A DNA stretch of 44,863 nucleotides. It comes from Candidatus Methanomethylicota archaeon (GTDB taxonomy: Archaea; Thermoproteota; Methanomethylicia; Culexarchaeales; Culexarchaeaceae). The stretch covers positions 1 to 44,863 of the forward strand of contig JAJHRD010000009.1 of assembly GCA_020833005.1 (NCBI GenBank). Direction: 5' to 3'. Below are positions 31,693 through 44,848 of the stretch, piece by piece. Within the stretch, counting starts at the first letter, position 1. Every line of letters starts with the position of its first letter. Below the pieces are notes generated by a model. That model had not been told where the DNA came from. It did not search any database and saw only the letters and a list, made by a program, of their open reading frames with translations. A program made the translations under genes and the position numbers.

Positions 31693-33507
31693 TTACACCT
31701 TAAACTTTTCAGCCAACTTCAGGAGGTTATTAAGCAATATATCCTCATTATTTGGGGTTTTAACGAATAATGGTATATTCTTCCTTCTAGTGGCTTTATG
31801 TGATATGAAAAGCCATTCCCCAGTATCGAGTTGTGCAGTTTTATCAAGTATTTCAGGGCTCACCCCAGATGCATCTGCAATCACATGCCTATCATAACTT
31901 CTGGGAAGAGTCCCAGCATAATAGCTGTGTAATTGTTGTATGGCATTAACATTTAATCTAGCAACCCTCTGCGTACTTATCCACCCATGAATCCTATACT
32001 TCCTACCCTGCCTTAGAAGCCTCTCCACATCCATATTGGATTGGAATGTTAAATCCTCCTTCCTAACATCATCTGGAATGAATTCTTGAGCTTCATCCAA
32101 AACCACAAGTATCCTTGGACCACCAAACCTCCTCTTCCTCAAAGTGAATAATGCACTAATGAATTTTGATGTGAAATCCCTTGCTTGGAGTGGATCTGGG
32201 ATGTATGCAACCATAAGCTTATGATCACCACCCATAATGAGCTCAGCGATATTCCAAGGGGATAAACCACTCTCAACAGGCTCTTCATATTCAACATTGT
32301 TCAATTTATCTCTGAAAATCTCCAAAACCCCATTAAACTTTGTTCTAGACCTACCACTCTCCAATCTAGCCAAAACATCATTTATTAAGCTGACTAAAGT
32401 ATTTCTAACGTCCCTATACTCATCTTTAGTTGCAATCTCATGGATTGTAATTTCATGTGGAAGCTTACTTGCAATGGCATTCAACTTATAATATAGGTCT
32501 GATGCAAGGATCTTTGTAAGTTGATTCTGATCATCCCTCAACTCATCTATCAAGCTTATCATGTAACTCAACTTATCACTCTCACGCCCCTCCAAATCAA
32601 TTTTGCAAATCCTATTCCCACCAACCAAATTCAATAGGTGATACTCTAAAGCCTCCCTCAACCTACTATTCCCCACAAGCTTATCCTCCAAACTTTCAGG
32701 GATAACTTGAGACGCGAAGAAGGATTCCAATATATCATCACTGCCAAGTAGGTCTTCAGTGGATAATATCATCCCATGATCAATGATCTCATCCAAGAGG
32801 TTTATGCTATACTCCCCAGCAACATCAATTATGAATATGGATGTATTTGGGAGGTTATGTAAAACCTTCCTAACAATTATGGATGTTAAATTGGATTTAC
32901 CGCAACCAGTAAATCCGAAAACACCACCATGAAACTTAATTAAGTTTAGAATATCAATCTTCAATTTATGTTGAAAACCAATTATTTCTCCAATTTCAAC
33001 CCCCCTTTCAACATTGACAAGTTTATCAATAGCCCAAGAGGATAGTAGGTGAGCTTTAGCCCCAACAAGAGGCATCATATTTGGATCATAATGGAAGTCT
33101 ATTGAACCATTTGAAACATTCATAACATACCCAGTGTATACAGCTCCAATATCAACCCAAGTATCTTCAGAGTCGCCCCACATGGAATATATCTTCACCA
33201 AGAAATCATTCCTCAAAGCTTTAGGCATACTCACATCCATGGAAAGCTCTTGAATATGTAGAGGCCTAACACTGAAGGTCTCGTAGATGAGATACTTCAA
33301 TTCACCCTCAGTAGGCCTCTCCACAGCTATGAATGATGGTTTTGAAAGCCTATCAAGAACTGCGAGATTAAATGAAGCTTCAAAAACACCAATAATGCTC
33401 TTTAAAACTATCTTCCCCTCCTCATAGGAAGTCTTTATGGATGTTTCACGAAGCCTAGCATTAAATGCACCATTAATATCATCAAACCATGGAGTATCCT
33501 TATCCAT
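31693..33507 (-). CDS. HerA-like hexameric ATPase/helicase
   Basis: 604 residues. The N-terminal part is a beta-barrel (HAS-like), followed by an ATPase core with Walker A GFTGCGKSN at 198-206, the FIIDVAGEYS strand, and Walker B RILVVLDEAQEF at about 466-475. Later, STQRVARLN and the QLHSYYAGTLPRS stretch fit the arginine-finger region of HerA. HerA acts with the NurA nuclease in DNA end resection or in defence. Here the likely NurA-type partner is on the opposite strand at 33951-35765, with an acylphosphatase gene between them. First gene of an operon with AmrS. Confidence 0.82.
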   Translation of the reverse strand: MDKDTPWFDDINGAFNARLRETSIKTSYEEGKIVLKSIIGVFEASFNLAVLDRLSKPSFIAVERPTEGELKYLIYETFSVRPLHIQELSMDVSMPKALRNDFLVKIYSMWGDSEDTWVDIGAVYTGYVMNVSNGSIDFHYDPNMMPLVGAKAHLLSSWAIDKLVNVERGVEIGEIIGFQHKLKIDILNLIKFHGGVFGFTGCGKSNLTSIIVRKVLHNLPNTSIFIIDVAGEYSINLLDEIIDHGMILSTEDLLGSDDILESFFASQVIPESLEDKLVGNSRLREALEYHLLNLVGGNRICKIDLEGRESDKLSYMISLIDELRDDQNQLTKILASDLYYKLNAIASKLPHEITIHEIATKDEYRDVRNTLVSLINDVLARLESGRSRTKFNGVLEIFRDKLNNVEYEEPVESGLSPWNIAELIMGGDHKLMVAYIPDPLQARDFTSKFISALFTLRKRRFGGPRILVVLDEAQEFIPDDVRKEDLTFQSNMDVERLLRQGRKYRIHGWISTQRVARLNVNAIQQLHSYYAGTLPRSYDRHVIADASGVSPEILDKTAQLDTGEWLFISHKATRRKNIPLFVKTPNNEDILLNNLLKLAEKFKV

Positions 33508-33569
33508 GAGGTAAGCCCAAATAATAATCAGTGAACCGATGTATAATAATATTTTGCGTTAAGATATGT

Positions 33570-33842
33570 TTAGTATCGAATCCTGAAATCCTTAAACTCC
33601 CCCTTATACTCCTCCCAGAAAACTTCAACATCATCAACCCTAGCCAATGGAGGCCCTTCACGAGCCCACTCCAAAACCCTCATAACAGCATCTTCACGCC
33701 CCTCAAGAACGGCTTCAACCCTACCATCAGGGAGATTCCTAACCCAACCAGTAACACCATACCTAGAAGCCACATTACGCATATTAGATCTAAAGAAGAC
33801 CCCCTGAACCCTCCCAGAAATGAATATGTGAGCTCTAACCAT
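33570..33842 (-). CDS. Acylphosphatase
   Basis: About 90 residues from the ATG at 33842 (TTG at 33857 is the longer alternative). The acylphosphatase marks are all present: a GRVQGVFFR loop with the catalytic Arg, and a [17 protein letters not shown] segment with the catalytic Asn. It hydrolyses acyl phosphates such as carbamoyl phosphate or acetyl phosphate. It lies between HerA and the NurA-like gene; whether it belongs functionally to either is not clear. A TATA-like box about 36 nt upstream is shared with the divergent NurA-like gene. Confidence 0.92.
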
Positions 33843-33950
33843 CTTCCCAGAAGACAATTAAACCACCAAACTCAAATATAATATTGGGTAGAAATAAAGG
33901 TAACCCATATGGGATGCGGAATTACATGAATATGATGAGTGGCGATAAAG

Positions 33951-35765
33951 ATGGAGGGAAACTATGAGATTACAAGATTGAGAAACTCGTTGAACCAGAT
34001 AATAAGGATATTTGAGAATAGGGTTAGAGAGATGAGTACAATACCATACTACAAGGATTTCATAAGAGAATATAGGGATGAAAAATTGTATGATAAGTTT
34101 AAAGAATTCTTCGGGGAAGGGGATTTCAAGATAGTGGGTATAGATGGATCTTTAACTCAAGAGAGAAGGATGGAAATGCTAATATTCTACGTATGTGCAG
34201 TGGGATTCTACGGTTACATGAACATCAAAAACAATGAAATAACATTGGATGTGAGTAGAGCAAGGGAGGAGGAAGCCATAAGCATATCAACAAGCATACC
34301 ACTATGGATGGAAGACATACCAAACATAGACCCAGAATACGAGTATGCACCAGACGACTTCGAAATGATGAAAACCATAGACAGCATACCATACGCATTA
34401 ATGACCATGAGCGAATTAAAACTAGCCAACGACCAAATAAACTCAGAGGAAGTGAAAGTTGTAATACTTGATAGAATGCTATCTGGAACTTATGGTCCAG
34501 CTTCAAGAGACTTCAGGAACCTACTGAAGAGGGGGAAATCAATAATATGCAAAGTAAATACGTCAAAGGGGAATCCAAGCATGCTAGACATAAACCTAGC
34601 TGGATACATGGGTCCAGGAAACATACACATACCATTCAGAGACCCATACACAGCATACGCAGCAATAAGAAGGCTAATTGAAGAAATGAATTTAGGGGAG
34701 AATAAGTTTAAGAAGAGGGATCTACCAAAAATATTGAATGTTGGGGAGGAGACTGCAAAGGAAGCTTTAAGAGACATAATGCAATTGAACATGAAGTACA
34801 ATGGCGAATTAATGGTGGATGAAGGGGAATACATAACAATAAACCCAAACGTGAAGGGATATTGGGATAGGGTTTGGCAAGCCACAGAAACCATTCTGAA
34901 AAGGATATATGAAGAGAGGAATGAACATCCACTAATGTTCAATGAAGAAGATTGGATAACAACACTAGATCTAAACACAATAAACCTATACATAATATAC
35001 TCCATAATGGATAAAGCAGTGAAAATGAATAAGCTAATCATAGGGATAATTAAGGATACGAATGCCACAGACCTCATGAGATCAACAATACCATACATCC
35101 TAAACATGAAGAAGATCGAGCAGAAAGGTATCCCAAGATTTAGAAGCGATAAAGCATTACTATCACTAATAAGCTCAGTAAACTACTCGAAGATAAAAGT
35201 TCCATGGAGAACAATAGAATACGATTCCACAATGACAACAATAATACAAGAACAAATCAATGGGGGAATGAAGTTCAAAGCTGCAAGGGAGATTATTGGT
35301 AGGGAGCAATTCACATTGAAAGGATACTTCCAATTGAGGGCATTAACGGAAGATCCCTCAATAAGGAGCAATGTATTCTCATACGATAGACCAGTATACC
35401 CAAAATACGACTTGAAAATGAAGAGGGAGCTTAAATGCATACAATTCGACAAGGAAATAGTTTTGGAGCCAATAATGGAGTTAGGGGACCAGGAAAACGT
35501 GATTGGAGACATAATACTACACATACTATCAAGATCAGATAACCCACACCTACTTGAAGAAATGGGACACAACCACCTACTATTCCTAGCAGATAAACTT
35601 GCAAAGATAATGAGTAAAAGGGCATCGAAAGTTATTGATGGATTAACAAGCCTAGACCTAATGGCTACAACAAAGAAGTATAAAGCATACTTCATAGCAA
35701 GAAGATTCAGAGACATAAGGAGCGAAATAGAACATATAAGAGAAATAAAAGCGAAACAAATGTAG
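33951..35765 (+). CDS. NurA-like nuclease-fold protein with internal insertion (604 residues)
   Basis: Much larger than typical NurA (about 340-450). The NurA layout can be followed: IVGIDGSLTQERR (first catalytic Asp near 69 of the longer frame), an acidic helix, VVILDRMLSGTYGPASRDFRNLL (second Asp, near 178), the late LIIGIIKDTNATDL strand, and a GHNHLLFLADKLAKIM helix. Between them, at about residues 240-330, is an insertion that looks like a winged-helix (KKRDLPKILNVGEETAKEALRDI...). It should be a nuclease or nuclease-derived partner of HerA. ATG at 33951 is used; GTG at 33939 is possible. A radical SAM gene follows directly. Confidence 0.65.
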   Translation: MEGNYEITRLRNSLNQIIRIFENRVREMSTIPYYKDFIREYRDEKLYDKFKEFFGEGDFKIVGIDGSLTQERRMEMLIFYVCAVGFYGYMNIKNNEITLDVSRAREEEAISISTSIPLWMEDIPNIDPEYEYAPDDFEMMKTIDSIPYALMTMSELKLANDQINSEEVKVVILDRMLSGTYGPASRDFRNLLKRGKSIICKVNTSKGNPSMLDINLAGYMGPGNIHIPFRDPYTAYAAIRRLIEEMNLGENKFKKRDLPKILNVGEETAKEALRDIMQLNMKYNGELMVDEGEYITINPNVKGYWDRVWQATETILKRIYEERNEHPLMFNEEDWITTLDLNTINLYIIYSIMDKAVKMNKLIIGIIKDTNATDLMRSTIPYILNMKKIEQKGIPRFRSDKALLSLISSVNYSKIKVPWRTIEYDSTMTTIIQEQINGGMKFKAAREIIGREQFTLKGYFQLRALTEDPSIRSNVFSYDRPVYPKYDLKMKRELKCIQFDKEIVLEPIMELGDQENVIGDIILHILSRSDNPHLLEEMGHNHLLFLADKLAKIMSKRASKVIDGLTSLDLMATTKKYKAYFIARRFRDIRSEIEHIREIKAKQM

Positions 35766-35781
35766 ATTGGATGAACTAATT

Positions 35782-36855
35782 ATGCTATACATACTACACA
35801 CCACCGGACAATGCAACCTAAAATGCAAATACTGTGGTGGAAGCTTCCCACAAAAACTCGTACCATGGAAAATTGAATACAACATAGAAGACTTGAAAAA
35901 TTTCATGGAAGGAGACCCAGAACCAATAATAGCATTCTACGGTGGAGAACCACTACTCAACGCGAAATTCGTAAGGAAAGTTATGGATGAAATAAGAGAT
36001 GCAAAATACGTCATACAAACCAACGCCACACTAATCGAAAACCTCGAAAGAGAGTATTGGTTAAGGTTCAATGCAATCCTACTATCAATAGATGGAAGGA
36101 GGAAGGTGACAGACTACTATAGGGGGAGAGGAATATACGATAAAGTTATAGATGCAGCCAGAAAACTTAGAAGGATAGGATACAATGGGGATCTAATAGC
36201 CAGAATGACAGTATCAGAGAAATCCAAAATATACGCTGAAGTAAAACATTTAGAATCACTAAAACTATTCAACCACATACATTGGCAATTAAATGTTGTG
36301 TGGAGTGAAAGATGGAAGAACTTTGATGAATGGTGTAAGAACAGTTACATACCAGGATTCAAAAAGCTCGTGGAAGAATGGTTAAGGAATGCTGAGAAGG
36401 GGTATGTAATTGGAATAACGCCAATATTGGGAGTATTGAAAGTTGAGATCACGGGTAAGGATATGGAGAGCCCACCATGCGGTTCAGGGAAAACCTCAAT
36501 AAGCATATGTAGCAATGGAAAGGTATATGCATGCCCAATAGCGGTAGACTCAAAATGGGCTGAAATTGGAAACATATACAATAATGATTGGAGAACTGTA
36601 GGGAAGGTATCGATAGGTGATCCATGCATAAAATGCCAATACTACAGGTATTGTGGTGGAAGATGCCTATACGCATACATGGAAAGGCTATGGGGTGAAG
36701 AGGGGTTTAGAAGCATATGCAGAATAACTAAGAAAACGATAAGGGAAGTTGTGAAGATCGCGGGAAGAGTTATCGAGCTGATAGAGAAGGGAATAGTAGT
36801 GGAGGAGGAAGTAGTGTATCCGAAGTTTAATAATACAGTAGAGATAATACCATAG
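35782..36855 (+). CDS. Radical SAM/SPASM protein, probable peptide-modifying type
   Basis: About 357 residues. The radical SAM motif CNLKCKYC is close to the N-terminus, FYGGEPLL follows, and a C-terminal SPASM region holds CGSGKTSISICSNGKVYACP, then CIKCQYYRYCGGRC. From memory it is close to the archaeal AF1577-type putative peptide-modifying enzymes (TIGR04084); this is not checked. The ATG at 35782 is likely, with a GGATGA site 7 nt upstream; a TTG at 35767 would begin 1 nt after the NurA-like stop. Its substrate is unknown and no precursor peptide gene is seen nearby. Confidence 0.8.
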   Translation: MLYILHTTGQCNLKCKYCGGSFPQKLVPWKIEYNIEDLKNFMEGDPEPIIAFYGGEPLLNAKFVRKVMDEIRDAKYVIQTNATLIENLEREYWLRFNAILLSIDGRRKVTDYYRGRGIYDKVIDAARKLRRIGYNGDLIARMTVSEKSKIYAEVKHLESLKLFNHIHWQLNVVWSERWKNFDEWCKNSYIPGFKKLVEEWLRNAEKGYVIGITPILGVLKVEITGKDMESPPCGSGKTSISICSNGKVYACPIAVDSKWAEIGNIYNNDWRTVGKVSIGDPCIKCQYYRYCGGRCLYAYMERLWGEEGFRSICRITKKTIREVVKIAGRVIELIEKGIVVEEEVVYPKFNNTVEIIP

Positions 36856-37167: not shown

Positions 37168-37941
37168 TTAGTTGGACGCTGGAGCTGCTGAAGCCGCCGA
37201 AGCCCTCTTCTTACGATAATCAGAATATATTATGTATAGAAGACCCAAACAACATAGAGCTGTCATTATCGGCGCATAGACGCCTGCCTCAGGAGTCCCA
37301 ATACCACTAGCTTCCCATGGGAAGTACTTACTACCAAGGAGCAATTCAAACCTCTGTATAAGCAAAGACTCTCTACCCATAACAGTATTAGCGAAGCTCG
37401 CACCCAAAGCTCCAAGGATAAACCATCTAGCAACCCTATTAGCGGATTTCAAAGGCCCACGCATCTCCACTGTGAATATGAAGAAGAATATCGATACGAA
37501 GGTACCTATGAACAGTACAAACCTATTAAAGGTTGTATATGGATCGGCTGCAAAAAGCGGATTTACAATAGCAGCATTAATTTGTGTTACGAAATCTGCT
37601 CTAACAGTACCCCTCAACATAGTGCCAGTACCATAACCTATACCTATAGCTATTGGAATCCTATAAAGCCAGAAATACTTCTTGGAGAAGAAGAAGTAGT
37701 AGCATAATCCTATTATAGCCCATGGAATCACGAAATCCCATCTACCACGGTAAACCACTGGATTGTATAAGTAGTTTTGGAAATACCATAAGTCTACTGA
37801 AACACCATAACCAACACTTAAAGCCACATATAGATGTTCAACAAATCTGAAAAGTGGGTTCTCTCTATATAGGTATGAGAGGCATCCAAAACTTACGAAT
37901 ACAGCAGTCCAAACGAATAGTATATCGAGAGCTGTAACCAT
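37168..37941 (-). CDS. Membrane protein of unknown function (operon gene 4)
   Basis: 257 residues with about seven hydrophobic helices, and a basic Ala-rich tail (KKRASAASAAPASN). Start at 37941 with a strong GGGAGGTGAG site 5-6 nt upstream. No family recognised. It is the last gene of a tight four-gene operon (6 nt or less between genes) whose proteins seem to form one membrane complex. Orientation and number of helices are estimates. Confidence 0.75.
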   Translation of the reverse strand: MVTALDILFVWTAVFVSFGCLSYLYRENPLFRFVEHLYVALSVGYGVSVDLWYFQNYLYNPVVYRGRWDFVIPWAIIGLCYYFFFSKKYFWLYRIPIAIGIGYGTGTMLRGTVRADFVTQINAAIVNPLFAADPYTTFNRFVLFIGTFVSIFFFIFTVEMRGPLKSANRVARWFILGALGASFANTVMGRESLLIQRFELLLGSKYFPWEASGIGTPEAGVYAPIMTALCCLGLLYIIYSDYRKKRASAASAAPASN

Positions 37942-37947
37942 ACCCCC

Positions 37948-38835
37948 TCACCTCCCAACACGAGCCTTCTTAGCAAAGTAGCTTAAGTTTCCAAGGATAA
38001 TACCCACCACCAATAGGTAGTGGACTGCAGATTGAGCATTCATTGCCTGTGGAGCACCACTCAATCCAAGTTCACCAAGCAATATTTCATATTCCGCTGC
38101 ACCCCTAAGGCTGTTTAAGAGGCCGATATAGCCTATATCCCCCTTCTTACCAGCATCATAGTATGGTAGATACCCTGGAACTGATACTCCAGGTAGACCT
38201 ACTGCGAAAACCAGTGCAGGTGGAGGCTTCTTTGTAGCCCAATACTGTAGATATGTTCCGGGGCCGGGGGCTCCAGCTGCAAAGGATATCACCATACTGG
38301 CATACTTTATCCCATCAAACTTCTTAACGAGTGGGAGTGTGGCTATTGGGTTTCCATAGTAGTCTTGAGTCATAGCTCCAGTAATAGTATCGAATATCCT
38401 AATGATTAGGGCGGTAGTTGCCAGATAACCTAAATTCACCACATGCTTACCATACTCCTTGGTAATCAATCTTGTTGGGTTTTCAGGATCTAATCCTGTA
38501 TGATCAATACTCCTCCAAATTTGATCAGCCATTATAGGCCCTTCACCCCACATACCAAGAATGTAAATATATACAGGCCTCTTCACAAGATGTCTGAATA
38601 CCAGTATAGCTTGTGGATGAAGCTCCGCATGCGCACCACCATAATCAAAGGATAATACAACTAGGGAGCCTGGTGGAAGCTTCTCTATATAATCAAACAT
38701 ATCCTTCGTATATTGAGTTATGCTGAGTGGTGAGGGAGCTACCACAGCCACTGGAATTGCAATGCAAAGTGCGGTTAATAGGTATAGCCATCTTGGATCT
38801 AAAGCCTCAAAAAACTCATACCAAGGCCTACCCAT
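37948..38835 (-). CDS. Membrane-anchored protein with a large domain, unknown function (operon gene 3)
   Basis: 295 residues. An N-terminal helix (LYLLTALCIAIPVAVVAP) is followed by a domain of about 200 residues that is rich in Gly, Pro and aromatic residues, including VVLSFDYGGAHAELHPQAILVFRHL and a SFAAGAPGPGTYLQYW segment; a last helix (YLLVVGIILGNLSYF) anchors the end. A strong ribosome binding site, GGAGGTGAG, precedes the ATG at 38835. No match to a known family, though the alternation of membrane and Gly-rich segments is like its neighbours. Confidence 0.75.
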   Translation of the reverse strand: MGRPWYEFFEALDPRWLYLLTALCIAIPVAVVAPSPLSITQYTKDMFDYIEKLPPGSLVVLSFDYGGAHAELHPQAILVFRHLVKRPVYIYILGMWGEGPIMADQIWRSIDHTGLDPENPTRLITKEYGKHVVNLGYLATTALIIRIFDTITGAMTQDYYGNPIATLPLVKKFDGIKYASMVISFAAGAPGPGTYLQYWATKKPPPALVFAVGLPGVSVPGYLPYYDAGKKGDIGYIGLLNSLRGAAEYEILLGELGLSGAPQAMNAQSAVHYLLVVGIILGNLSYFAKKARVGR

Positions 38836-38837
38836 CT

Positions 38838-39560
38838 CTACTCACCTCCAGCAAGGGTTGGTCTACGCTCATACGCAAATATCACCCTAACACCATAAGC
38901 CATAGCACCTATAGCTGTGCATATGGATACTGCACGCATAGCAGAGGTATTCCAGTAATCCATAATCCAAGCTCTAATTGGATCGAAGAATGGGAATATT
39001 GCTGAATTTATAGGTGCATTCCCCATTAAAACGAGGAATCCAGATATTAGGAGTAATGCTGCATCAACGTTCCTAGCCCTGAAAGCACGGTAACCAGCGG
39101 AAATAATGAAGAATCCAAGTAATGCGAACATCATGCTGCTAGCAACGCTACTCACACACCAGTAGAAGTAGTTCCAAATTGTACGTGTATTATCATAAAT
39201 CCATTTGGGTACGATAGCCCCCTTTGGATCCAATGCATATCTGCCACCAAGAACACTAATTATGGCCATAAATGGGAGCATAATCAGAATTATCATGCTA
39301 TACTGCCAATAAGGACGTTTACGCGTAACATTCCTATAGTGAATCCTGTAAACATTTATGGCGCCAATTCCAATAGCCATGGCACCCATTGCATTGAAGT
39401 AGTCTAGCATTGTGGTTTCAAGGTAGCTTGACAAGCTAAACGTTCCAACCCTAATGTCAATGTACCATTCAAATACATATAATATGCCAAAAATAAAGCA
39501 TAGTGCTAATGGTATGGACCTCTTATAGTCGAGTAATAATGAGCGGAAGCCCACGCCCAT
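38838..39560 (-). CDS. Membrane protein of unknown function (operon gene 2)
   Basis: About 240 residues with six to seven predicted helices. The N-terminal region contains FNAMGAMAIGIGAINVYRIHYRNVTRKRPYWQ, a Gly-rich turn and a basic loop. Start: the ATG at 39560 lies 4 nt after the upstream stop, but a GAGGTG site only fits the GTG two codons later (39554), so the exact start is uncertain. No family recognised. Confidence 0.72.
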   Translation of the reverse strand: MGVGFRSLLLDYKRSIPLALCFIFGILYVFEWYIDIRVGTFSLSSYLETTMLDYFNAMGAMAIGIGAINVYRIHYRNVTRKRPYWQYSMIILIMLPFMAIISVLGGRYALDPKGAIVPKWIYDNTRTIWNYFYWCVSSVASSMMFALLGFFIISAGYRAFRARNVDAALLLISGFLVLMGNAPINSAIFPFFDPIRAWIMDYWNTSAMRAVSICTAIGAMAYGVRVIFAYERRPTLAGGE

Positions 39561-39564
39561 CACC

Positions 39565-40413
39565 TCACTTAGCAAGTAAATCCAATAAGAACCTACTCCC
39601 AGCAGTTATTAGTACGATACCTACAATTAGCAGTATGAAGGATATGTATTTCCCAAGGTCATGTGCAAAGAGAACTCCAATAATCTTTGGATCCCTAGTT
39701 ATATATGCTGCTGCAGCGTAAAGTTCCTCACCAAGCAAAACATAATCGCATGCAGCTACGAAGAAGGGTAACTGAACAGTGCTAGTTGTACCGGCAACTT
39801 GTATAGCTCCAATGTTGAATCCGGCTTCAGCAAGCTCTAATGATTCAGCGTAGAAGTATCCTAGGAAGAAGTTTGCTGCAGGCCTCTCCCTCTGGAATAT
39901 GCCTAAGCATCCTTGAGCATATGCGAATTGCTCACTTGCAATGAACCTTACGAATTCAGGCTGATACATGTCAGCCTTACCCTCCATAGTATAAGCTTGC
40001 TTAACAATACCCTCAGCAGCCATGTAAACAGTATAATACCTATTTGCCACAATAAGTGGAATACCATATCTAGCAGTCTTTCTTGCAATATCACCTAAAA
40101 TTGATAGTGCAGCAAGAGTTTCAAGTGCGCCAATGCCGCTCATCCCTGGTGAGAAGAATACTGGTTTACCCATCTCAGTGGCTCTTCCAATAGCTTCATC
40201 TATAGCCTCCACAGCGGGAATCTTCCTAACTTTAACCTTCTCAGGCCTCCTCTTAGAAAGCTCTAATGCAAATATTGTTAGTATTCCGAAGATTAGTAGT
40301 AGGAATCCCTGCGCCATCCTACCAGAAATCACTCGAAACTCTATTTGAGCCAAATCCAGTAGTATCATGTATACCACATCTAAAGGATTTTTCTCAAAAA
40401 AGGAGGTAATCAA
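39565..40413 (-). CDS. DUF6754-like membrane protein of unknown function (operon gene 1)
   Basis: 282 residues: an N-terminal helix (GFLLLIFGILTIFALEL) and a C-terminal helix (FILLIVGIVLITAGSRFLL) enclose a soluble part of about 180 residues that contains EAIDEAIGRATEMGKPVFFSPGMSGIGALETL and an AGTTSTVQLPFFVAACDY segment. From memory this resembles the DUF6754 family; function unknown. The TTG at 40413 fits leaderless transcription, since a TATATAA box at 40436 is 22 nt upstream. An ATG at 40368 would drop the first helix's upstream part. Confidence 0.72.
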   Translation of the reverse strand: MITSFFEKNPLDVVYMILLDLAQIEFRVISGRMAQGFLLLIFGILTIFALELSKRRPEKVKVRKIPAVEAIDEAIGRATEMGKPVFFSPGMSGIGALETLAALSILGDIARKTARYGIPLIVANRYYTVYMAAEGIVKQAYTMEGKADMYQPEFVRFIASEQFAYAQGCLGIFQRERPAANFFLGYFYAESLELAEAGFNIGAIQVAGTTSTVQLPFFVAACDYVLLGEELYAAAAYITRDPKIIGVLFAHDLGKYISFILLIVGIVLITAGSRFLLDLLAK

Positions 40414-40656: not shown

Positions 40657-40941
40657 ATGGGAAACCCGACCACCACAAATGAAATACATGTGAAGGTTAA
40701 ATTCACATCATATCTTAGAGATTTGATTGGTAGGAATGATGCTGTTATAAAGATGAAAAGTGGGGTAAGTGTTGATGATTTGATGAAGATTCTTTGGGAG
40801 AAGTGGCCTATAATAGGGAAGATGGATATGCATGGTGAAGGCCCAATAGTAATACTTTTGAATGGTAAGCCTGTTGGGAGAAGTGTAAAGTTGAATGATG
40901 GTGATGAAGTAGAGTTGATACCGCCAGCAACTGGAGGATGA
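40657..40941 (+). CDS. MoaD/ThiS-family ubiquitin-like protein
   Basis: 94 residues with the beta-grasp fold pattern (HVKVKFTSYLRDLIGR...VIKMKSG..SVDDLMKIL...) and the di-glycine C-terminus PPATGG. Such proteins carry sulfur for molybdopterin or thiamine synthesis or act as ubiquitin-like modifiers (SAMP). No adenylating E1-like or MoaE gene is nearby, so the role is open. A cupin gene follows 43 nt later. The start ATG at 40657 is in a stretch without an obvious ribosome binding site. Confidence 0.85.
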   Translation: MGNPTTTNEIHVKVKFTSYLRDLIGRNDAVIKMKSGVSVDDLMKILWEKWPIIGKMDMHGEGPIVILLNGKPVGRSVKLNDGDEVELIPPATGG

Positions 40942-40984
40942 AAAGTGTTTTAAGTTGTTTGGTGAACTAATTCATGAGGATATT

Positions 40985-41338
40985 ATGGAGAAAGTTGTAC
41001 ACTACACTAAAGTTGAAAGTGAATTCGTGAAGGCTGAGGGAGCACGTGAAACATATGTTAGGTGGCTAATAACGGACAAAGATGGTGCACCAAACTTTGC
41101 CATGAGATTATTTGAAGTAAAGCCTGGCGGAAATTCACCATACCATGAACACCCATATGAACATGAAATATTCATACTAGATGGAGATGGAAAGGTAATT
41201 ATAGATGGAAGAGAATACATGGTTTCAAGGGGGTTTGCAATATACATACCTCCAAATGCAAAACACACAATAATCAACAATGGAAAGAGCGATTTGAAAT
41301 TCCTATGCATGATACCATTAACCACTAAAGGGAAATAA
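40985..41338 (+). CDS. Small cupin-domain protein
   Basis: About 117 residues from the ATG at 40985 (GAGGAT site 5 nt upstream; a TTG at 40955 is the longer option). The cupin metal motif is HEHPYEHEIFILDGDG with two His ligands and Glu, followed by the second cupin box PPNAKHTIINNG with the third His. Such small cupins bind metal ions or act as oxygenases or isomerases; substrate unknown. It is close downstream of the MoaD/ThiS-like gene. Confidence 0.85.
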   Translation: MEKVVHYTKVESEFVKAEGARETYVRWLITDKDGAPNFAMRLFEVKPGGNSPYHEHPYEHEIFILDGDGKVIIDGREYMVSRGFAIYIPPNAKHTIINNGKSDLKFLCMIPLTTKGK

Positions 41339-41406
41339 ATGTAAAATGAGAATTAAATAAAATTAATAAATTGAAATCATCATACCTATTTTTGAGTAGT
41401 GAGTTT

Positions 41407-42456
41407 ATGGGTGGAATACTATTTATTGGAACTGGAAGTGCAGGTGAAAGGATACTTTCAATAGCATATGCAACCTTCAAGAATCTGCGATCAAAAGAGA
41501 ATTACTTTGTTGCAGTAAACACTAGCAAGAAGGATCATGAGAGAGTTCAATCATACTTTGAGGAGAGGGGGATAAAGGATCACCCAAACTTCCTATTTGA
41601 AACCATTGGTGAAGAAACTTTAAGCGGTTATGGTGCTGGGAAAGACCCTAAACTTGGGCAAAGCGCATATGAAACTGATAAGGAGAAACTTCTAAAGAGG
41701 CTGAAAAGCCTACATAAGAAGGAGAACTTCAAAATAGCGATAACACTATCAAGCCTAGGTGGAGGATGTGGAACTATGGTTGCAGGGGAATTGTCAAGTG
41801 ATGTGAGGGATGAAATTGGAATAAGAGTTGTACCCATATGCACAATACCATTCAGAAGGGAGGGAGACCTACTCGTTGGAAACGCCATACTTGGCTTAAG
41901 GAATCTACTTGATAAGGGGTTAAATCCATTAATTTTCGATAATGAGTTGATGATGAGATTTAGCCAAACAGTGGGGGAGGGGGTTGATAGAGCCAACATA
42001 ATAATTACATCCCTAGTATCAAGCTTAGTGGACCTTGTGGAGTATGGTGGATTCTCAAACCCCCCAATAGACATAATAGATATAACTAGACTGATAATAC
42101 CACAATGCGGATTCTTCACAGTAGCATACCTAGATAACCTAAGAGATTTCAAGAAGAAGTGGAAGGATCTATTTGAATTCAACAAATCACTGGTTTCACA
42201 ACCAATAACACAAACAAACTGCTTCATAATGTTTAAAGCCAGAAGCTTCCCACATGAATTGGTGGAAGATGCACTCTCCTACCTTAGAACAAAGTATAGT
42301 GCAAAGGAGATAATACCAACAACCATAGAGGATAAAAGCTTCTCAGGATACACAATAGCAGCAATGGTTTGGGGGATGTCCATAGAAGGTATAAAGCCAC
42401 CACTGAAAACTAAAAGACCATTAAGTGAAGAGATTAGGAAAATGTTCAAAATATAA
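41407..42456 (+). CDS. Divergent FtsZ/tubulin-superfamily GTPase
   Basis: About 349 residues. Despite low similarity the FtsZ order of loops is clear: T1-like GTGSAGERIL at the start, NTSKKDHE (FtsZ NTDxQ), GYGAGKDPKLGQSAYE (FtsZ GLGAGxDPxxGR), the T4 signature GGGCGTMVAG at 118-127, VPICTIPFRREGD (FtsZ VxxxPFxFEG), and a T7-like loop PPIDIIDITRL with both acidic residues at 222 and 225. There is no clear FtsZ C-terminal tail peptide. It should bind GTP and could form filaments. It is not a canonical FtsZ; CetZ, FtsZ-like or a new branch are all possible. ATG 41407 is preferred over TTG 41371. Confidence 0.78.
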   Translation: MGGILFIGTGSAGERILSIAYATFKNLRSKENYFVAVNTSKKDHERVQSYFEERGIKDHPNFLFETIGEETLSGYGAGKDPKLGQSAYETDKEKLLKRLKSLHKKENFKIAITLSSLGGGCGTMVAGELSSDVRDEIGIRVVPICTIPFRREGDLLVGNAILGLRNLLDKGLNPLIFDNELMMRFSQTVGEGVDRANIIITSLVSSLVDLVEYGGFSNPPIDIIDITRLIIPQCGFFTVAYLDNLRDFKKKWKDLFEFNKSLVSQPITQTNCFIMFKARSFPHELVEDALSYLRTKYSAKEIIPTTIEDKSFSGYTIAAMVWGMSIEGIKPPLKTKRPLSEEIRKMFKI

Positions 42457-42494: not shown

Positions 42495-43076
42495 TTAAAT
42501 GAATTCGGAAAGTAAACGTTTATCTGAAATTTTTGGGAGCTTACTTGAAGCATTAACAACACCTGATGGGGAATAATCAACATATCCAAGGGAGATAAGC
42601 TTCTTTAAAACAGCTTCAGGATTTGATACCCCCATTTCAGATAAGTCTCTAAGAAACCTTATAACACCAACACTATGATACTTATTCAAATACTCCACAG
42701 ACCTCTTCAAATCAGCATCCTTCATCCAATCCAAATCCATCCTCGCAGCAGGTTTCTCCACAGAAGCCTCCATGGTAGCAGGCTTCCCGGAAACCTCAAC
42801 CTTTGTAGAGCTAACGCTCATGCTTGGTTTAGATGAAATAATCCTTGGAACTTGAAAACTGCAGAGTACATCTTCAACTTCCATAAACCCCTCCGGAGCT
42901 GAAATCTCACCACTCTTCAAAAGATCATTTAAAATGGCGGTTAAAGTGGCTAAACCTATACCTTCACCCTTAGCCCAAACCCTCAAATCATCAAATGAAA
43001 TCTCACCAACACCCCTAATATAACTACGAACTTTATCCAATAGCATCTTATAATATCCGCCAATAGACAAAAACAT
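42495..43076 (-). CDS. Possible tandem winged-helix protein, unknown function
   Basis: 193 residues. The N-terminal part (VRSYIRGVGEISFDDLRVWAKGEGIGLATLTAILNDLLKSGE) and the C-terminal part (SVGVIRFLRDLSEMGVSNPEAVLKKLISLGYVDYSPSG) both look like winged-helix folds, separated by a low-complexity Ser/Lys/Glu linker (about residues 75-120). Such layouts are seen in archaeal replication or chromatin proteins, but no name can be given. The ATG at 43076 is 20 nt downstream of a CTATAAATAG box, fitting leaderless transcription. Divergent from the small gene at 43137. Confidence 0.6.
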   Translation of the reverse strand: MFLSIGGYYKMLLDKVRSYIRGVGEISFDDLRVWAKGEGIGLATLTAILNDLLKSGEISAPEGFMEVEDVLCSFQVPRIISSKPSMSVSSTKVEVSGKPATMEASVEKPAARMDLDWMKDADLKRSVEYLNKYHSVGVIRFLRDLSEMGVSNPEAVLKKLISLGYVDYSPSGVVNASSKLPKISDKRLLSEFI

Positions 43077-44674: not shown

Positions 44675-44848
44675 ATGATAACATCAAAAGTGAAGGTGAA
44701 ATCCATGGTTAAATGTAAGAAATGTGGAACCGAAGTTAGCACACCAATAAAGACTTGGGTACTAGCACCAAAGGGGAGAAGACCCGTAACAATGGGACTA
44801 TACAAATGCCCAGCTTGCGGAGCATACTTCAGAGCTGGAGTAAAGTAG
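44675..44848 (+). CDS. Small zinc-ribbon protein (57 residues)
   Basis: 57 codons from an ATG at 44675 to TAG at 44846-44848. Two Cys pairs (CKKCGTE near 14-17 and CPACGAYF near 45-48) form a zinc ribbon around a basic strand-rich middle ([22 protein letters not shown]). A TATA-like box 22 nt upstream fits leaderless transcription. Such small archaeal zinc ribbons often bind nucleic acids; the family is not identified. ATG at 44705 is another possible start. Confidence 0.7.

Follow-up and report, generated by a model that had tools for sequence, protein, structure and literature searches.

How does a hot-spring archaeon divide if the only tubulin-superfamily gene found in its genus encodes an altered relative of FtsZ? 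Archaea are thought to divide either with FtsZ and SepF or with ESCRT-III (Cdv), and to our knowledge the Thermoproteales are among the archaea having neither system, their division mechanism being unsolved. The window analysed here, a stretch of 44,863 nt, comes from the genome of a Candidatus Culexarchaeum species and carries such a gene. That the family exists is not new, since it was described by Kohtz et al. (2022; PMC9723716), who, in the part of their report available to us, placed a single Culexarchaeia FtsZ-like protein in a deep-branching new clade lying between FtsZ2 and CetZ, left its function undetermined, and noted uncharacterised relatives in Thermoplasmata, Bathyarchaeia and other groups. 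The window protein is of the same family and from the same genus. However, the present trees lend no support to a firm placement between FtsZ2 and CetZ, and the loop chemistry, the C-terminal tail and the absence of SepF are not discussed in that part of the report. What is new here is the status of the gene as the sole one of its kind, its loop chemistry and tail, its sporadic kin, and a correction concerning CdvC.

The longest reading frame of the gene runs from the first TTG (41371-42456); its relatives begin at MGG, corresponding to the ATG at 41407 that the initial annotation had also chosen, and the protein is therefore 349 residues long and ends at 42456 (Table 1). Comparison with Candidatus Culexarchaeum nevadense, the closest named record at 97% identity, gave dN ~0.017 and dS ~0.38 (dN/dS ~0.04), showing strong purifying selection. 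The gene is real and its motifs have not arisen by chance. Among adjacent orthologues it is the most conserved at both distances compared, with 97% identity to G002 of the same genus (84-95% for the others) and 80% to G006 of the same order (36-70% for the others). The protein matches the Pfam Tubulin family PF00091 (55.8 bits, cut-off 33, E 1e-14) and no other Pfam family above cut-off, and scores 57.1 bits against the NCBIfam ftsZ equivalog model, below its cut-off of 295.2. Sigma-70 promoter and terminator scans gave matches at chance level only.

Table 1. Positions of the features discussed, in window coordinates unless another locus is named.
Feature	Position	Strand	Basis
MoaD/SAMP-like small protein, upstream, probably not part of the function	40657..40941	+	context
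Cupin protein directly upstream of the FtsZ-like gene; placement kept within the order only	40955..41338	+	context
FtsZ-like GTPase gene, 349 aa + stop, ATG start	41407..42456	+	domain match, relatives' start, dN/dS
T1 loop GTGSAGER (FtsZ GxGGAGxN; here GxGS(A/G)G)	41428..41451	+	hhalign register with FtsZ and CetZ; family alignment
T3 loop region GYGAGKDPKLG	41626..41658	+	aligns with FtsZ GLGSGGDPEIG; G-AGKD invariant in 6 relatives
T4 phosphate loop GGGCGTM (FtsZ GGGTGTG)	41758..41778	+	family alignment, hhalign
T5 loop PFRREG	41848..41865	+	family alignment, hhalign
T6 DNE with base-binding Asn179	41938..41946	+	invariant in 6 relatives; aligns with FtsZ and CetZ DN
Helix H7 Asn197, presumed guanine-contact position (Asp in FtsZ, Asn in CetZ)	41995..41997	+	hhalign register
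T7 synergy loop PPIDIIDIT	42061..42087	+	PPIDI-D invariant in 6 relatives; hhalign register
Conserved short C-terminal tail GIKPPLKTKRPLSEEIRKMFKI, weakly amphipathic	42388..42453	+	family alignment
PolB1-binding-protein-2 domain protein; same neighbour across the order	42495..43076	-	context
Vps4_C-positive AAA protein = CDC48	L085:770-2980 (G000), L086:811-3021 (G001)		

The gene was initially placed outside any standard division cluster, and inspection of its surroundings agrees: no division genes are among the neighbours, and the PolB1-binding-protein-2 (PBP2) domain gene lies on the other strand. The genus shares a gene order of DUF6754 membrane cluster, MoaD-like protein, cupin, FtsZ-like protein, PBP2-domain protein, 134-aa protein and PfkB kinase, which is largely retained in G006 but not in G260, G210 or L004. 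This conserved neighbourhood is read as shared ancestry and not as function; an operon-based function was discarded because conservation of the cupin and MoaD-like genes does not extend beyond the order and the genes flanking distant relatives differ. The DUF6754 protein (301.8 bits) leads a mostly unassigned four-gene cluster (37168-40413, minus strand) that is syntenic across the order and divergent from the MoaD-cupin-FtsZ-like genes. Elsewhere in the window, a group at 31693-36855 holds a HerA-like ATPase (31693-33507, minus strand), an adjoining 608-aa protein with a weak NurA match (33939-35765, plus strand) and, next to the latter, a TIGR04084 radical SAM/SPASM protein (35767-36855, plus strand), and a small Cren7-type chromatin protein with zinc-ribbon-like cysteines is encoded at 44675-44848 (plus strand).

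Profile alignment (hhalign) to TACK FtsZs and to CetZ was used to place the nucleotide loops. All of the loop motifs claimed in the initial annotation were recovered in order, namely GTGSAGER (residues 8-15), GYGAGKDPKLG (74-84), GGGCGTM (118-124), PFRREG (148-153) and PPIDIIDIT (219-227), with FDNE (177-180) lying between the last two. Across six relatives, the most distant at 36% identity, G-AGKD, GGG-G, DNE and PPIDI-D-T do not vary. The GTPase fold, loops T1-T6 and the T7 aspartates of NxDxxD (Asp222 and Asp225, in register with FtsZ) are shared with canonical archaeal FtsZ1 and FtsZ2. Unlike those proteins, the family has lost the last Gly of T4, which is Met or Leu throughout the alignment, and the window protein has Pro220 in place of the T7 Asn and Asn197 in place of the H7 Asp, at a position that we take from general knowledge of the fold to contact guanine. 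In FtsZ and tubulin, hydrolysis of the nucleotide in one subunit is triggered by the T7 aspartates of its neighbour, which makes it dependent on head-to-tail polymerisation; retention of these aspartates here argues for stacking and polymer-coupled hydrolysis.

An AlphaFold2 model built from four sequences contains the Rossmann GTPase domain, so that a protein lacking this domain, the outcome that would have told against the initial annotation, is excluded. The N-domain is well modelled (block pLDDT mostly 70-95) and is followed by a long H7 helix, whereas the C-domain, because only four sequences went into the prediction, is of low confidence (pLDDT <50), with a helix and strand order that fits FtsZ. 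Foldseek against the PDB matched FtsZ structures and CetZ 3zid (E ~1e-12, query TM mostly 0.55-0.64, ~330-370 columns). By profile comparison, neither FtsZ nor CetZ shows significant similarity to the C-terminal half taken alone, and profile evidence by itself failed to establish homology of this domain. The protein differs from FtsZ1 and FtsZ2 in having no FtsZ_C match, no linker or terminal peptide and no SepF in the genus. It resembles CetZ in its similar length, its H7 Asn and its lack of an FtsZ terminal peptide, and is unlike CetZ in its C-domain, which has no significant match to the CetZ C-terminal domain. No C-terminal tail was seen initially, which holds for a long linker and terminal peptide of the FtsZ kind, but beyond the last predicted strand there is a short tail that is conserved in the family. 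The protein ends ~20 residues past that strand, with no SepF- or FtsA-binding peptide; the pattern IKPxLxxKxxLxEx..F of the tail recurs in G006, G260 and G210, with a looser version in the Thermoplasmata record, and the amphipathicity of the tail is weak (shuffle p ~0.03 after picking the best window).

The sampled relatives of the host genome comprise three in the genus, one more in the family and two more in the order. In all four genomes of the order that carry the FtsZ-like gene (G000, G001, G002 and G006) it is the sole PF00091 gene; G006 also has an actin match. The three Culexarchaeum genomes (G000, 95% complete; G001, 99%; G002, 91%) gave no match for FtsZ_C (PF12327), SepF, Snf7 (ESCRT-III), actin or MIT, these absences resting on MAGs, in which an absence is never complete. 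The searches for Snf7 and MIT score in Methanomethylicia, where an MIT-AAA CdvC adjoins a Snf7 gene (L087), and all of the searches for absent genes score in other TACK genomes. The Culexarchaeum match to Vps4_C is a 737-748 aa protein, which in G000 and G001 is CDC48 (TIGR01243, 1146 bits, cut-off 803), and none of the three genomes showed an MIT domain. Kohtz et al. (2022; PMC9723716), in the part of their report available to us, state that Culexarchaeia encode CdvC only; the reported 'CdvC' is probably this CDC48 protein, which would correct the published inference.

As the sole, altered FtsZ relative in genomes with none of the other division and filament genes that were looked for, the protein is the best candidate for cell division in Culexarchaeum, and we lean, if only slightly beyond even balance, toward its being a GTP-dependent tubulin-fold filament for division or for division and shape. 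In this reading, GTP-bound subunits would assemble head to tail and hydrolyse the nucleotide at the contact between neighbours, giving a filament associated with the membrane where the cell divides. With no SepF found and no C-terminal peptide of the FtsZ type, such a filament must reach the membrane another way, and either the short basic tail of the protein or an anchor yet to be recognised may serve. A precedent for anchoring free of SepF is OdinFtsZ1 (PMC12583498), an archaeal FtsZ whose amphipathic helix at the N-terminus binds membrane directly; as the Culexarchaeum protein is not extended at that end, the part of the helix could fall only to its C-terminal tail. The division role is favoured by the intact nucleotide loops and both T7 aspartates kept over a wide range of identity, by the status of the gene as the only tubulin-superfamily gene in a genus where no SepF, ESCRT-III, MIT-type CdvC or actin was found, by the match of the model (good in its N-domain only) to FtsZ structures over 335-346 aligned columns, and by the strong conservation of the gene within its immediate neighbourhood. 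Against it stand the T1 and T4 deviations from FtsZ, the weak amphipathicity of the tail, and adjoining genes, none of them a division gene, whose conservation stops at the order. A bolder proposal, that Culexarchaeum divides by a one-component system in which a tubulin-fold filament of its own kind, anchored by its C-terminal tail and with a re-made C-terminal domain, has displaced both FtsZ-SepF and ESCRT-III as a third archaeal cytokinesis route besides FtsZ-SepF and Cdv, we put forward as conjecture that is unlikely to hold.

In a 43-row tree the family is a single clade (100/100) on a long stem outside canonical FtsZ, within which the window protein, C. nevadense and a second Culexarchaeales family (80% identity) group together at 99/100. 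AU tests on this tree rejected a position within the main group of TACK FtsZs (p 0.007) and did not reject joining all FtsZ (p 0.066) or CetZ (p 0.079); in a reduced 34-row tree, from which most other long branches had been removed, a clade with CetZ had p 0.54 and nesting among FtsZ was not rejected. The phylogeny gives the family its own clade, outside FtsZ in the full tree, so that a position plainly inside known FtsZ, the other outcome that would have told against the initial annotation, is disfavoured; together with the Pfam domain and the predicted fold it supports identification of a divergent FtsZ/tubulin-superfamily GTPase. Deeper in the tree, the family may belong on the FtsZ side or on the CetZ side. 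Eukaryote-type tubulin membership was rejected, tubulins (sampled as fragments only, and with no artubulins by name) splitting off at 100/100, as was a viral or plasmid (PhuZ/TubZ) origin, there being no PHROG match, no kin on viral contigs, and only distant FtsZ/CetZ on plasmids.

Clear members of the family occur, among 398 genomes of the phylum, only in G000, G001, G002, G006, G260 and G210, and relatives outside the order are sporadic (36-59% identity). A Thermoplasmata MAG has a member at 57% identity, with no clear member in 292 other genomes of its phylum, and may therefore owe it to transfer or misbinning. G260 encodes a member together with two canonical FtsZs and SepF, which makes the family a separate paralogue and not a drifted orthologue. 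G210 has a 36%-identical member, SepF, and no FtsZ_C match; it was dropped as proof of a SepF partnership because a second tubulin-like gene, of 455 aa and beside an apparent scpB, is present there. An FtsZ-like protein of 444 aa in G210 (L066:1489-2820) has an apparent C-terminal winged-helix extension and is encoded directly downstream of an scpB-like gene. Also in G210, a weak ribbon-helix-helix match, below cut-off, lies upstream of the FtsZ-like gene (L060:9007-9672, minus strand); haloarchaeal ftsZ2 also adjoins a ribbon-helix-helix gene, cdrS. Another divergent FtsZ-like protein family was seen in a different taxonomic family of the same class, in G007 (L061:3146-4276) and G024 (L062:64-1197), with proteins of ~377 aa and 63% mutual identity that end in a strongly basic amphipathic tail (WSKLLAKKLRELFK). 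Their genes adjoin what resembles a membrane hydrogenase cluster, and the grouping of these proteins with the Culexarchaeum family (88/92) may reflect long-branch attraction.

The main rival to a division role is that of a CetZ-like cytoskeletal protein serving cell shape or the positioning of surface machinery, Culexarchaeum dividing by something unrecognised, and this we consider rather unlikely, though a serious contender. The top PDB sequence match is CetZ of Methanosaeta thermophila (3zid, E 1e-12; profile E 2e-17), the H7 base-contact residue is that of CetZ, and a clade with CetZ survives the AU tests on both trees. The combination in G260 also fits a second role there, as for CetZ in haloarchaea, and G005, from one family of the same order (95% complete, 9% contaminated), has actin and no tubulin-superfamily, SepF, Snf7 or MIT matches, so that the order can apparently divide without the FtsZ-like protein; the gene set of G005 resembles the situation in the Thermoproteales. 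However, the family profile matches TACK FtsZs more strongly (99.0% probability, E 3e-18) than CetZ (98.0% probability, E 3e-13), PFRREG is closer to the FtsZ T5 loop than the PGSDEG of haloarchaeal CetZ, and the strong conservation of a gene that is the sole filament gene detected in the genus suggests that its role is essential. Distinctly improbable is a tubulin-fold GTPase that forms no long filaments and acts as a regulator or membrane-remodelling factor; a C-terminal domain modelled at low confidence and without sequence kinship to FtsZ or CetZ, the missing T4 glycine and the metabolic genes nearby would suit it, but the T7 aspartates, relevant only upon stacking, are invariant even in the most distant relative. 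A fast-evolving canonical FtsZ1 or FtsZ2 of this lineage is very improbable, since, although the closest profile match is FtsZ and the reduced tree tolerates nesting, the full tree rejects it, FtsZ_C is unmatched, the NCBIfam ftsZ score is far below cut-off, the member in G260 is a separate paralogue, and the gene is now slow-evolving.

With division by a tubulin-fold filament as the preferred reading, the FtsZ-like protein would have no rival as a recognised filament candidate in its genus, provided that the genes missed in Culexarchaeum are truly absent. A lone candidate makes the division question testable with one gene: does the protein polymerise, and what anchors it?
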